From Pseudomonadota bacterium (GTDB lineage: Bacteria > Pseudomonadota > Gammaproteobacteria > Acidiferrobacterales > Acidiferrobacteraceae): DNA of 42,440 bases. Below, piece after piece: positions 1,376-24,366 of the stretch; the first letter of the stretch is position 1, and each line of letters begins with the position of its first letter. A program made the position numbers and the translations under genes. The notes beneath the pieces were generated by a model. The model did no database searches and was not told the DNA's origin. It worked only from the letters and a program-made list of their open reading frames with translations. The stretch covers positions 1 to 42,440 of the forward strand of contig JAKAXM010000017.1 in the NCBI GenBank assembly GCA_021816625.1. The letters are read 5' to 3'.

Positions 1376-4057
1376 TTAGGCGAGCCGCCCATGGCACTGC
1401 TTGTACTTCTTGCCGGAACCGCACGGACAGGGGTCGTTGCGTCCCACCTTGGGTCCACTGCGCAAGACCGTTTGGACGGCCACATCCCCGTCCTCTTCGG
1501 TCTCGGCGAAGCTTGGGTGATCGAAGTAAGTAACGCCGGCTTGCCGGCGCTGCTCGTTGATCATATCAATCTCGCTTGCGTCCTCGATCTCGACCTGGGC
1601 TAGCGTCGTGATGACCTCGTGCTTGATCCGGTCGAGCATCTGCGAAAACAACTCAAAAGCCTCGCGCTTATATTCCTGCTGGGGGCTCTTTTGGGCGTAA
1701 CCGCGCAACTGAATCCCCTGGCGCAGATGGTCCATCGCCGCCAGATGATCCTTCCACTGAAGATCCAGGACCTGGAGCATGATCGCCTTCTCCAGATGGC
1801 GCGTGGTCTCAGCGCCTAGCCGCTCGACCTTCTCGCGATAACGCATCTCAGCCTGCTCGTGAATACGGCGCCGCAACCCTTCCTCATCCAGGGTACTTTC
1901 GCTCTTGAGCCAGGTATCGAGCGGCAACTCAAGACGCAGCTCCCGCTCGAGAGTGGCCTGCAAACCCTCGATATCCCACTGCTCCTCGAAGCTTGCCGGC
2001 GGCACATGGGTGTTGATCATGGCGTCTACGACGTCCCGATGGATGGCAGCCACGCTTGCACTCACGTCGTCGGCCACGAGCAGCTTATTGCGTTGCTCGT
2101 ATATGACCTTGCGCTGATCGTTTGCGACGTCGTCGTATTCAAGCAATTGCTTGCGAATATCGAAATTGTGAGCTTCGACCTTGCGTTGGGCATTCTCGAT
2201 TGCCTTGGTCACCCACGGATGTTCTATGGCATCTCCCGCTTCCATGCCGAGCCGCTCCATGAGGCCTGCCACGCGATCCGAACCAAAGATTCGCATGAGG
2301 TTATCCTCAAGCGATAGATAGAACCGTGTCGTTCCCGGATCCCCTTGGCGGCCGGAACGGCCGCGAAGCTGGTTGTCGATGCGCCGGGATTCGTGACGCT
2401 CCGTGCCAATCACCTTGAGACCGCCTACACTTATGACCCGCTCGTGCCGGGCTTGCCACTCGGCCGTTATACGCACCCGTTCGGCTGGGTCAGTCACGTC
2501 CTTTAGTTCCGCCTCCAGGTTGCCACCCAGAACGATATCCGTGCCACGCCCGGCCATGTTGGTGGCGATGGTAACGGCCCCCTCGCGCCCAGCCTGAGCT
2601 ATGATCTGGGCCTCCCGCTCATGATGCTTGGCGTTCAGGACCTCGTGCGGTATGCGCGCTTTTTTTAGGAGGGCCGACAGACTTTCGGAGCTTTCGATCG
2701 ATGCCGTGCCCACCAGGACGGGCTGGCCTTCCTTGTGGGCAGCGGCGATGTCGGCAACAATTGCGGCATGCTTCTCGGCGGTCGTCCGGTAGACTTGATC
2801 ACCAAGGTCCTTGCGCACGGCCGGCCGATGGGTGGGGATGACCGTGACTTCGAGGTTGTAGATCTCGTGAAACTCGAAGGCCTCGGTATCAGCGGTTCCG
2901 GTCATACCAGCAAGCTTATGGTAGAGGCGGAAATAGTTCTGAAAGGTGATCGAAGCGAGGGTCTGATTCTCGTTTTGGATCGCGACACGTTCCTTCGCTT
3001 CGACGGCCTGGTGCAAGCCGTCGGACCACCGGCGACCCGGCATCATGCGTCCCGTGAACTCGTCGACGATGACGATTTCGCCATTGGCGACAATGTAGTC
3101 CACCTCGCGGTGGTAGAGGGCATGCGCCCGCAGCGCTGCGTTCAGATGATGCAGGAGACCCATGTTGGCGAGATCGTAGAGACCCTCGCCGTCTGCCAAT
3201 AACCCGGCCTTGGCCAGCAGCGTCTCGGCGGCCTCATGACCCTCTTCCGTCAGATAGACCTGCTTGGCCTTTTCATCGACGGTGTAGTCTCCCGGTCCGC
3301 CTTCCACTTCTTGGCGCGTGAGCTTAGGCACGATGGCGTCGATCTTGGCGTAGAGATCCGTATTCTCCTCGGTGGGCCCGGAGATGATGAGCGGTGTCCG
3401 GGCCTCGTCGATGAGAATCGAGTCAACCTCATCGACGACTGCGTAATGGAGCGGCCGCTGCACGCGCTCATCGGCGCTAAAAGCCATATTGTCGCGTAGA
3501 TAGTCAAAGCCGAACTCGTTGTTCGTTCCATACGTTATGTCAGAATTGTAGGCCTCGCGGCGGGCCGGTCCGTCCAGCGAAGAGACGATGGTTCCTACGG
3601 TGAGACCGAGAAAACGGTAGATCCGGCCCATCCACTCCGCGTCGCGCGACGCTAGGTAGTCATTGACCGTGACGACATGGACGCCGAGGCCGGGTAGCGC
3701 ATTCAAATAGGCCGCGAGCGTAGCGACGAGGGTCTTGCCCTCGCCGGTGCGCATTTCCGCGATCTTGCCTTCATGCAGGACCATGCCGCCGATCAGCTGG
3801 ACATCGAAGTGCCGCATCCCAAGCGTCCGGCGCGAGGCCTCGCGCACGGTGGCAAAGGCCTCCGGCAAAAGGGCGTCGAGAGATTCGCCGCGCGCAAGCC
3901 GCTCCCGAAACGCTGCGGTCTGGGCGCGCAAGTCGTCGTCCGACAAACCCGTGTACCGGGATTCGAGGGCGTTGATGCGCACGACCTGCTGCCGGAGCCT
4001 GCGAACGACGCGATCGTTGCGGCTGCCGAAAAACTTACTTAAGACGTTTGCGACCAT
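1376..4057 (-). CDS. secA: Preprotein translocase ATPase SecA
   Basis: The motor ATPase that drives unfolded preproteins through SecYEG at the inner membrane. At 893 residues it has the usual length. The Walker A segment MRTGEGKT lies at about 102-109, and the preprotein-binding and DEAD-like signature [20 protein letters not shown] follows near residue 210. The helicase motifs [10 protein letters not shown] and [12 protein letters not shown] are intact, as is the HHWNWH-free C-terminal linker followed by a zinc-binding tail with [14 protein letters not shown] that recruits SecB. It follows the M23 peptidase gene by 67 bases. That gap contains a possible promoter (see 4087-4115), so secA may be expressed both from the upstream operon and on its own. 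argJ follows after 13 bases. Confidence 0.98.
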
Positions 4058-4124: not shown

Positions 4125-5033
4125 CTAACGACGGTCGGCCATGTGCAGAAAACCGATGGGATTGATGGGGGTTCCGTGCAAAAGCACCTCAAAATGGAGG
4201 TGGGGACCCGTGGAATAGCCCGTATCCCCCACACGGCCGAGTAGCTGCCCCTTCTGGACGAGCTCCCCGACATGGACGTAACGGGCGCTCAGATGGGCAT
4301 ACATGGTCACCTCGCTATGCCCGTCGAAGATCTTGACGAGGCGGCCGAAACCGCCGTCGCCGCCCGCGAATATCACGATCCCAGCGGCCATGGCGCGGAC
4401 CGGCGTCCCCACGGGGGCTGCGATATCGACACCCGGATGGAAACCGGGCCGGCCCGTAAACGGGTCCGGGCGCGGACCAAAAGGCGACGATATCCAGCCG
4501 CCGCGGACAGGCCAGCCTCCAGGGGTCGTACGCGACAGTACCCGGTGGGCCGTCAGGATGGTTTCGAGGACTGCAAACTGGGCCGCGCGGCGCGCGAAAT
4601 TGGCCTCGAGCTGGCCTGCCAGGCGCTGCAGGCCCGTTACCGTCCAACGCGCACCGGCTGGGCTTGCGGCTAGCATCGTGGTCGACCAGGCGGCAGGGAG
4701 CATGGCGCCTCCGGCCCCGACGCCGGCTACGCTGCCCAGGCGGCCGGCCAGGGCGTCGAGACGGCTGGCCTGGGCGCGAAGACGGCCGACGGTCTGGGCC
4801 AGGGCCGATAGATCGTGGTGACTTAAGCGGGCCAGCGCCCGGACCTGTCCTGGCGCATCGGGCGGGATGGCGGTCCCTTGCACGGGCGTGGGGCCCGCGA
4901 GCCAAAACGCGAAGCCGCCTATAAGTAGCGGGAACAGACCAAAAAGGGTGATGGCCCCTGCGATTAGTCGGCTAGTAGTCAAAGTCAACGGCCGGGCCTG
5001 CGCATCCCCTTCGCGCAGCAGGATGATGTTCAT
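4125..5033 (-). CDS. Membrane-anchored M23 (LytM-type) peptidase
   Basis: 302 residues. The protein has a short cytoplasmic start, one membrane segment at about 22-45, a helical region at about 62-165 likely to form a coiled coil, and a C-terminal LytM domain from about 175. The zinc-binding residues appear intact: H199 and D203 in FHPGVD, and H278 and H280 in GPHLHFE. The segment SSPFGPRPDPFTGRPG is the usual domain entry. Enzymes of this family cut peptide cross-links in peptidoglycan; inactive members instead activate amidases, but the intact residues here argue for catalysis. A peptidase of this build near secA and lpxC is common in gammaproteobacteria. Its start overlaps the stop of the upstream gene by ATGA, so the two are translationally coupled. 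The helical region resembles that neighbour (see findings). Confidence 0.9.
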   Translation of the reverse strand: MNIILLREGDAQARPLTLTTSRLIAGAITLFGLFPLLIGGFAFWLAGPTPVQGTAIPPDAPGQVRALARLSHHDLSALAQTVGRLRAQASRLDALAGRLGSVAGVGAGGAMLPAAWSTTMLAASPAGARWTVTGLQRLAGQLEANFARRAAQFAVLETILTAHRVLSRTTPGGWPVRGGWISSPFGPRPDPFTGRPGFHPGVDIAAPVGTPVRAMAAGIVIFAGGDGGFGRLVKIFDGHSEVTMYAHLSARYVHVGELVQKGQLLGRVGDTGYSTGPHLHFEVLLHGTPINPIGFLHMADRR

Positions 5034-5527
5034 AGCGCCCGGCGGCTGCTCGCCACCACACCATGGGAGAGTCGATCGGCAAGCGCGCGGAGTTTCGCGA
5101 TCAGGTGCGAGGAGTTTCGGGACGCCACCGGCATCATGGGCGTCGCGGGCGCCCCTCGCCGCGAAGCATTGAGCGCAACCCCCGTGGACGTTACAAGCCG
5201 CTGCTTCACGCGGGCGAGATGAGCCGCATCGGCATTCAAGGCCCCCAACTCAAAACCCATGGCCGCTATGCCGGCCGCCGTGTTCCGGGTCAAGGCGGCA
5301 ACTTCGCTCCGCAGGAAGCCGGGGCGATGGCTAGCGATAAGCCCGCTCGCTGGTACCACGCGACCCAGCACACCATAGACACCTGCGGCCAGCAAGAGCG
5401 GGACGACCCCCGCGAAGACCCCCACCAGGATCTGCCACTGGCGGGGAGTGAAACGCCAGTGCCAGTTCCAGTGGTGGCGGCGGCCGACAAGACGGATGGA
5501 AATAGGACTCGATCGCTTATCCTTCAT
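5030..5527 (-). CDS. Single-span membrane protein with a coiled-coil region, unknown function
   Basis: 165 residues, start ATG at 5525-5527 with GAGAGG upstream. A longer open frame runs on into lpxC but is unlikely to be used. The protein has a basic, Trp/His-rich start (RLVGRRHHWNWHWRF), one membrane segment at about 35-55, and a periplasmic helical region. It has no enzyme domain that I can recognise. The layout (short basic tail, one span, helix with a repeated hydrophobic pattern ending in TGV) parallels the N-terminal half of the M23 peptidase encoded immediately downstream with an ATGA overlap. I infer that it is a truncated paralogue or partner that could pair with the peptidase through the helices. 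lpxC lies 25 bases upstream. Confidence 0.75.
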   Translation of the reverse strand: MKDKRSSPISIRLVGRRHHWNWHWRFTPRQWQILVGVFAGVVPLLLAAGVYGVLGRVVPASGLIASHRPGFLRSEVAALTRNTAAGIAAMGFELGALNADAAHLARVKQRLVTSTGVALNASRRGAPATPMMPVASRNSSHLIAKLRALADRLSHGVVASSRRAL

Positions 5528-5552
5528 AACGCCTCTCGCTGCCACCCCTGCG

Positions 5553-6464
5553 CTAAACGGCGGGGACCGGTCGTGCAAACGAGATGGCGGGCCGGTCCGT
5601 CTCTTCAAACGACACGATCTCACAGGCATCGGCATCCGCGAGAAGCGCACGCAGGAGGCGGTTGTTAAGGGCGTGGCCCGATTTGCAGGCACTGAAGGCC
5701 CCTATCAACGGATGCCCCAAGAGGTAGAGATCGCCTATGGCATCAAGGATCTTATGTTTGACGAATTCGTCTTCGTAACGCAATCCGTCCTCGTTTAGGA
5801 TCCGGAAATCGTCCATGACGACAGCGTTATCCAAACCGCCACCTCGCGCGAGCCCATTCTGGCGCAAGGCCTCCAGTTGATGCATGAAGCCAAAGGTGCG
5901 GGCCCGGCTTATTTCCTTGACAAAAGATGTCGTCGAGAAATCGATGCAAGCGACCTGCGTGGAGTTACGAAAAATCGGATGATCGAAGTCGATCGTAAAG
6001 GAGACCTTGAATCCGTCCCAAGGATCGAACCGCACCCATTTGTCGCCGTCGTGGATCTCCACTGTCTTGCGGATACGGATAAACCGCTTATGGGCCGACT
6101 GCTCTTCGACACCGGCCGACTGGATCAGGAATACGAAAGGGCCCGCGCTCCCATCCATGATGGGAACCTCGGGCGCCGTGAGGTCCACATAGGCGTTGTC
6201 GATCCCGAGCCCTGCGAAGGCGGACATCAGATGCTCGACGGTCGAGACCCGGGCGCCATTATGCTCCAGGGTCGTCGACAACCGCGTGTCGCTCACATTC
6301 TCGGGGCAAGCGCGCAACTCGACAAGCTGCGGCAGGTCGACACGGCGGAAGATGATGCCACTGTCGACGGGTGCCGGGCGTAAGGTCAGGTAGACCTTCT
6401 CCCCTGTGTGCAACCCCACGCCCGTGGCCCGGATAACATTTTTTAAGGTACGTTGCTTTATCAT
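5553..6464 (-). CDS. lpxC: UDP-3-O-acyl-N-acetylglucosamine deacetylase
   Basis: 303 residues, the usual length. LpxC is the zinc enzyme of the first committed step of lipid A synthesis in the cytoplasm. Seen: [17 protein letters not shown] at the start; zinc ligand H78 in [17 protein letters not shown]; the second ligand set H237 and D241 in [16 protein letters not shown]; and the catalytic H264 in [11 protein letters not shown]. It sits between ftsZ and the M23 module as in many gammaproteobacteria. The 173-base gap after ftsZ contains a credible promoter with a palindrome, so it can be transcribed apart from ftsZ. Confidence 0.98.
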
Positions 6465-23932: not shown

Positions 23933-24028
23933 GCATGTAGGCACAAAAGGGGACGGACGGCGGCCTTTAAAGAGGTGTCTGGGAGAAGCAGGCGAGCGTG
24001 CGCCTGGATCGCGGACGCGAGAGCAGGT

Positions 24029-24366
24029 GGGAGTCGGCCGGTAAGCCGGGTTCTGTCGTGGACAGTCATTCATCTGGGACGCCCGTCACCGAGCGCCTCT
24101 AGCAACCTACCCGGGGACAGCGCGGGCCACGCCATAGTCCCCCTATGCGGTCTTGCTCCAGGTGGGGTTTGCCCTGCCACCGATGTTGCCACCGGTGCGG
24201 TGCGCTCTTACCGCACCATTTCACCCTTACCCACTTACCGACGTGGGCGGTATATTTTCTGTGGCACTTTCCGTAGGCTCGCGCCTCCCAGGCGTTACCT
24301 GGCACCTTGCCCTGCGGAGCCCGGACTTTCCTCTGCCTTCCAGCAGCGACTGTCTAGCCGACTCCC
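24029..24366 (-). ncRNA. rnpB: RNase P RNA (bacterial type A)
   Basis: The catalytic RNA that trims tRNA 5' leaders, about 338 bases. Conserved parts on the minus strand are AGAGGAAAGTCCGGGCTCC near the 5' end (P4 first strand), GCCAGGTAACGCCTGG, GGGTAAGGGTGAAA, GGTGCGGTAAGAGCGCACC, AAACCCCACC, and the 3' end ATGACTGTCCACGACAGAA followed by CCCGGCTTACCGG. The ends pair as a perfect 10-bp P1 helix: bases 24357-24366 with 24029-24038, GGGAGTCGGC against GCCGACTCCC, give the limits used here. A -10 TATACT at 24373-24378 lies at the right distance for a start at 24366. I see no clear terminator after the 3' end. mraZ lies about 180 bases further on. Confidence 0.95.

Follow-up and report, generated by a model that had tools for sequence, protein, structure and literature searches.

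Non-catalytic partners of M23 enzymes are already known. The nearest precedent for a heteromer is Csd1–Csd2 of Helicobacter pylori (PDB 5j1l), catalytic and non-catalytic M23 paralogues that pair through helical domains (PMC5053510). The degenerate LytM proteins EnvC, NlpD and SpoIIQ are likewise described there as non-catalytic M23 relatives acting as partners (PMC5053510). PA4404 of Pseudomonas aeruginosa is also an M23/LytM peptidase, with its level restrained by LbcA–CtpA; the accessible text of that report lists it as a predicted outer membrane lipoprotein and describes no peptidase-less paralogue alongside it (PMC6050968).

The window analysed here is the first 42,440 nt of contig JAKAXM010000017.1 (assembly GCA_021816625.1), and its minus strand carries, in order, ftsZ, lpxC, a small gene, an M23 gene, secA and argJ. 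The names ftsZ, lpxC, secA and argJ are putative, read from the window sequences; the M23 gene was assigned by family search. The neighbours around the small gene and the M23 gene are conserved in relatives. In P. aeruginosa, the PA4404 gene presumably adjoins secA as well. In enterics, the gene between lpxC and secA encodes SecM, a small exported product. The features of the locus are as follows, all on the minus strand:

5553–6464, minus: lpxC, upstream neighbour of the small gene across a 25-nt gap (putative name; neighbour conserved in relatives)
5532–5537, minus: Shine-Dalgarno-like GAGAGG of the small gene (duplex energy -5.8 kcal/mol), without a counterpart of similar strength at the M23 start
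5030–5527, minus: small gene (P0001, 165 aa), paralogous to the N-terminal half of the M23 protein and devoid of a peptidase domain (profile comparison)
5450–5503, minus: basic, Trp-rich beta-hairpin of the small protein, residues 9–26 (AlphaFold2 model and net charge)
5357–5446, minus: predicted membrane helix of the small protein, residues 28–57, with conserved Pro43 (alignment and AlphaFold2 model)
5183–5323, minus: long helix 1 of the small protein, residues 69–115, the stretch aligned in the first-pass annotation (AlphaFold2 model)
5039–5119, minus: helix 2 of the small protein, residues 137–163 (AlphaFold2 model)
5030–5033, minus: ATGA, in which the small-gene stop overlaps the M23 start (read from the sequence)
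4125–5033, minus: membrane-anchored M23 (LytM) metallopeptidase (P0002, 302 aa; PF01551)
4899–5030, minus: short hairpin (residues 2–19) and membrane helix (20–45) of the M23 protein (AlphaFold2 model)
4527–4856, minus: M23 helices 1 (60–102) and 2 (132–169), homologous to the small-protein helices (AlphaFold2 model and profile comparison)
4158–4442, minus: catalytic LytM domain of the M23 protein, residues 198–292, absent from the small protein (Pfam)
1376–4057, minus: secA, downstream neighbour of the M23 gene (putative name; conserved in relatives)

The window also holds a class A RNase P RNA (24026–24365, minus; Rfam RF00010, 332 bits).

As in Csd1–Csd2, which have neighbouring gene numbers (HP1543, HP1544), catalytic and non-catalytic paralogues are adjacent here, and a chain of 5j1l was the third best solved relative of the window M23 by sequence, and a chain of that entry ranked fifth by fold. 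Unlike Csd2, which keeps a degenerate LytM domain, and unlike EnvC, NlpD and SpoIIQ, which carry one, the small protein lacks the whole domain; moreover, the Csd helices flank LytM on both sides, whereas those of the window M23 are N-terminal. The step from this precedent to a heteromer of the small protein and the M23 would be one of analogy.

Kinship of the small protein and the M23 N-terminal half

The larger protein belongs to peptidase family M23 (PF01551 at residues 198–292, E 4e-31, 107.5 bits against a Pfam cut-off of 28.7), with the HxxxD and HxH motifs present as HPGVD and HLH. For the small protein, no M23/LytM domain was found with Pfam, where the sole match was PorB (E 0.096), and NCBIfam returned only MamC (E 0.28). 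The best match of its profile among solved structures was a designed protein (E 0.021).

AlphaFold2 models gave both proteins the same order of elements (hairpin, membrane helix, two helices), in agreement with the first-pass description of a membrane span followed by a helical region. The small-protein model, of middling confidence (pLDDT 68, pTM 0.27), has strands at 9–14 and 21–26 and helices at 28–57, 69–115 and 137–163; the M23 model (pLDDT 74) has strands at 2–5 and 16–19, helices at 20–45, 60–102 and 132–169, and then the LytM fold. Both products had also been credited with a short basic tail, and this held for the small protein only. Taken over rows related by descent and with no significance test attached, the mean net charge of the N-terminal tail was +7.0 in small proteins (n = 17), +1.0, or nearly neutral, in M23s of genomes carrying the small gene (carriers; n = 14) and +3.2 in other M23s (n = 34), and that of helix 1 was +0.5, +4.1 and +4.5, respectively. 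Relative to other M23s, the tail is thus more basic in the small protein and less basic in the carrier M23. From the charge of the small-protein hairpin, we infer that it faces the cytoplasm.

Compared as single sequences, the two proteins were only weakly similar (BLASTP E 0.020, 28% identity over 72 residues). The helices that the first-pass annotation had called alignable did align over 45 residues without gaps, 13 of them identical, and, of 2000 shuffles, two equalled the best 45-residue ungapped match of the two periplasmic regions. A single-sequence search matched two genomes without the small gene (non-carriers), in one case an M23 and in the other a sensor-like protein (G044).

The profile searches decided the matter. 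We aligned the 17 small proteins from relatives and searched the resulting profile (A1) against 57 Acidiferrobacterales genomes in six frames. All nine non-self matches below 1e-7 were M23 genes (E 2.6e-15 to 7.4e-8), and the next-best match had an E of 0.01. Most M23s escaped this sequence-profile search: no M23 was matched below 1e-7 in 32 of 40 non-carriers, including G015 and family f5, nor was the own M23 in 16 of 17 carriers, G007 being the exception. In the reverse direction, a profile of the N-terminal half of other M23s (A4) matched the small gene in two of 17 carriers (G017, 1.5e-10; G008, 5.8e-6). Across 369 genomes of the class, 28 matched the small-protein profile at E <= 1e-3 and 341 did not; two matched via the small gene itself. 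We fetched the loci of the other 26, and 25 were secA-linked M23 genes, the exception being G397; in G168, the M23 domain match itself covered the small-profile match. The lpxC gene was also visible in 23 of these 25 loci, and the fetched pieces of the other two stop before it.

Profile–profile comparison (hhalign) aligned the small family with the N-terminal halves of 23 non-carrier M23s over 149 columns (probability 97.6%, E 4.7e-12) and with those of its own lineage's M23s (E 8e-11), at 22–24% identity in both halves compared; the two M23 N-half profiles, non-carrier and carrier, matched each other at E 2.2e-17. Controls stayed at chance level (reversed profiles 0.028 and 0.22, FtsQ 0.063), so the relation that the first-pass annotation had asked to be separated from generic helix goes beyond it (4.7e-12 versus 0.028 for the reversed control). 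These comparisons confirm the small protein as a paralogue of residues ~1–160 of the downstream M23 peptidase.

Distribution, gene order and origin

The small gene was present in all 14 genomes of genus g1 (own included) and all three of genus g2, that is, in 17 of 17 genomes of Acidiferrobacter (order Acidiferrobacterales, class Gammaproteobacteria) and one sister genus. It was not found in any of the 40 other genomes of the order, some of them incomplete: G015, the sole g3 genome, which belongs to the same family, and 39 more. Wherever lpxC and the adjoining M23 were readable in non-carriers (27 of 40), the space between them ranged from a 4-nt overlap to 139 nt, too short for the small gene, and secA adjoined the M23 gene in 25 of these 27 loci. 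Since the small gene lies 25 nt from lpxC in the window, its position is that of the M23 start in the ancestral arrangement. Elsewhere in the Gammaproteobacteria, lpxC and the secA-linked M23 are farther apart, and dciA (PF05258) occupied the space in all three loci tested (L098, L114, L118); the 27 readable Acidiferrobacterales loci have too short a gap for it.

In a tree of 65 N-terminal halves, the small proteins formed one clade (support 100/99) and the 14 M23 halves of their lineage another (93/94), and a single branch (99/97) parted these two from the other 34 M23 rows, a placement to be taken with care given the long branches. With the root among those 34, this branching is what a duplication in the common ancestor of g1 and g2 predicts. 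The old duplication proposed in the first-pass annotation, with one copy lacking the peptidase, was borne out by the profile homology, the order-wide search and this tree.

The same annotation had proposed a survey of whether the small gene always accompanies this M23 gene in relatives and took its absence from close relatives that keep the peptidase as counting against the idea. Such relatives do exist, G015 among them. Because gene order and tree point to a lineage-specific gain, these absences point to a date for the duplication rather than to its refutation; they also mean that the partner is dispensable for the M23 family at large. Loss of the small gene in G015, instead of a later gain in g1 and g2, is a possible alternative, since branches are long and the position of G015 differs between halves: it grouped with f5 in the N-half tree and with g1 and g2 (SH-aLRT 82) in the catalytic-half tree. 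Its M23 N-half (L050) is also fast, with an end branch of 1.28.

Some genomes of the order carry a further copy from this M23 family that is not linked to lpxC (L063, L064, L068, L069, L072, L075, L077). Those whose surroundings were read (L064, L069, L072, L075) lie near lolC/E-like genes, three of them with a yggS-like gene, names given by resemblance and with Pfam run on one of each. At the seven starts of these second copies, ribosome sites are all but absent (mean -0.5 kcal/mol); in several, a stretch resembling TATAAT could be made out by eye immediately ahead of the ATG, on which grounds they may be leaderless. The two copies in G028 (L069, L085) are 94% identical in the N-half and 98% in the C-half and paired in both trees, which suggests gene conversion or recent copying.

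An origin of the small gene from a second M23 copy was not favoured, because the seven fetched copies formed no single group in either tree and it is the small gene that lies next to lpxC, at the ancestral start; in the trees of both halves, several second copies branched next to the lpxC-linked copy from their own or a related genome. We saw no other peptidase-less copy in the order, where, besides one weak match (G028:C1:58093, E 3.2e-4), all 16 short N-terminal pieces checked in non-carriers (L142–L157; M23 residues 1 to about 35–90) lie at contig ends, nor a similar one elsewhere in the class among the matches listed, where the short frames in G344 and G142 stop at contig ends. The 16 pieces come from G018, G019, G022, G027, G029, G031, G033, G037, G044, G049, G050 and G053, with two each in G018, G029, G033 and G044, and probably mark assembly breaks where two near-identical M23 copies begin to match, which points to homogenised copies.

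Coupling, evolutionary rates and candidate roles

The ATGA overlap reported for the window was confirmed, and an NTGA overlap directly joined the small-gene stop to the M23 start in all 17 carriers, own included (ATGA in 16, GTGA in one); the whole M23 gene follows in 14 of them, and the contig ends inside it in the other three. The small gene has the stronger ribosome site in 17 of 17 (anti-Shine-Dalgarno duplex energy -5.8 versus -2.5 kcal/mol in the window; means -7.7 versus -3.3 kcal/mol). In 27 non-carriers, the start of the lpxC-adjoining M23 averaged -5.8 kcal/mol, several being as weak as the carrier M23 start. Published reporter experiments tie 4-nt overlaps to termination–reinitiation, and such overlaps are enriched among heteromer subunits (PMC10666635).

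The small gene is under purifying selection (dN/dS 0.16–0.32, 13 close pairs), which, with its presence in 17 of 17 genomes of both genera, rejects a decaying remnant. For the M23 gene (11 pairs with both M23s), dN/dS was 0.13–0.27 in the N-half and 0.02–0.13 in the catalytic half. Rates were also scaled by LpxC, obtained by pattern in 34 of 40 rows. At an LpxC identity of 0.88–0.92, M23 N-halves were 35% identical between carriers (19 pairs) versus 72% between non-carriers (18 pairs), and catalytic halves 87% versus 77%; small-protein identity in that range was 32%, matching the carrier M23 N-half. The catalytic half (4158–4442 in the window, and relatives) averaged 86% identity between g1 and g2 and 48–65% to other M23 groups. 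The fast N-half of G015, which has no small gene, means that the acceleration is not unique to carriers.

Across 13 genomes, distances of the small protein and the M23 N-half correlated at about 0.81–0.82 given LpxC, and the control, small protein against FtsQ, at 0.85. With FtsQ also accounted for, the first correlation fell to 0.47, a value reached by one of 2000 label permutations that ignore relatedness. The rate correlation is not specific: the FtsQ control removed most of it.

The reading we favour, with somewhat better than even confidence, is that the small protein is a dedicated heteromer partner of the M23 peptidase, made first and in a fixed ratio. In the ancestor of Acidiferrobacter and its sister genus, the 5' half of the lpxC–secA-linked M23 endopeptidase gene would have been duplicated in place, the upstream copy retaining the hairpin, membrane span and helical stalk and ending ahead of the LytM domain, and the downstream gene retaining the enzyme. 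Both anchor halves would then have diverged fast in parallel, while constraint on the catalytic domain tightened. As a membrane-spanning neighbour of the M23, the small protein would pair with the helical stalk of the enzyme, its own strongly basic hairpin taking over the cytoplasm-facing contact, and the ATGA overlap would yield both proteins in a fixed ratio, partner first. Homology, gene order, lineage, selection, overlap, ribosome-site asymmetry and rate shift are the observations on its side; membrane topology, physical contact and any effect on M23 activity or placement are what we infer from them. Against it stand the rate of the small protein, which follows that of FtsQ no less closely than that of the M23 N-half, the fast N-half of G015, the middling confidence of the small-protein model, the many M23s that escaped the sequence-profile search and the weak ribosome sites at M23 starts of non-carriers.

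The homology and coupling data would fit equally if the small protein were an inhibitor or decoy, a dominant-negative paralogue that takes up the M23 stalk interface and keeps the enzyme inactive in a mixed oligomer, thereby restraining wall hydrolysis at the membrane, as the first-pass annotation had also suggested. M23 hydrolases need control, LbcA–CtpA being described as degrading MepM and PA4404 (PMC6050968), and a restraint made before and together with the enzyme would be safe. The data do not discriminate this role from that of a positive partner, and the acceleration of both anchor halves in parallel is as compatible with shared work as with restraint; we consider inhibition unlikely.

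The overlap and the weaker M23 ribosome site, both seen in 17 of 17 carriers, would also suit a cis-acting leader, a small ORF that feeds ribosomes into the M23 start by termination–reinitiation or senses export like SecM. Selection on its protein (the dN/dS range above) and invariant residues spread from 1 to 149 in the alignment of 17 argue against this, as does the poor conservation of the C-terminal end, the expected site of an arrest peptide, outside its last residues. The small protein has only the PorB and MamC matches given above and, at E up to 5, none to SecM in Pfam or NCBIfam, libraries which we take to include a SecM model; a SecM-like monitor was rejected on this absent family match. 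Unlike SecM, the small protein shows no conserved C-terminal arrest stretch, and the M23 gene separates its gene from secA. A leader role in cis therefore appears quite unlikely.

A copy that has lost its M23 contact and serves another envelope protein, its linkage being historical, would account for the low identity to M23 halves (22–24%) and for a rate that follows FtsQ as well as the M23 N-half. The overlap that joins the two genes in all 17 carriers, the stalk architecture retained end to end in the AlphaFold2 models and the residual correlation of 0.47 weigh against such independence, which we regard as improbable. Chance likeness between two generic membrane-plus-helix proteins, which might be read from the marginal BLASTP value, the sensor-like match and the 32 of 40 non-carriers lacking a sequence-profile match to an M23, is rejected as extremely improbable by the concentration of strong profile matches on one M23 family, the chance-level reversed and FtsQ controls and the shuffle test.

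Meaning for the M23 family

Returning to the heteromer partner, we tentatively put forward a fuller version, to which we give slightly less than even credence: through a partial in-place duplication, a membrane endopeptidase that paired with itself may have become an obligate heteromer encoded by two genes, in which the enzyme kept the blade, and the cytoplasm-facing address (the basic hairpin) passed to a peptidase-free anchor copy, made first and in fixed ratio via the 4-nt overlap. In the open-licence literature searched, we found no description of a partner that is the anchor half alone, arose by partial duplication in place and overlaps its parent gene. If true, a domain-deleted twin would here regulate a peptidoglycan hydrolase, and the origin of the arrangement could be dated to one branch.

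The question bears on how cells restrain peptidoglycan endopeptidases. The M23 family concerned is common in Gammaproteobacteria, its N-half profile matching 204 of 369 class genomes, and every one of the 23 class loci with both ends visible has it flanked by lpxC and secA. An anchor half copied into a gene of its own would amount to a natural dissection of that half, of its job, its pairing and its cytoplasmic contacts. The lineage would also capture how a single self-contained protein became a coupled pair, related genomes still keeping the ancestral arrangement.
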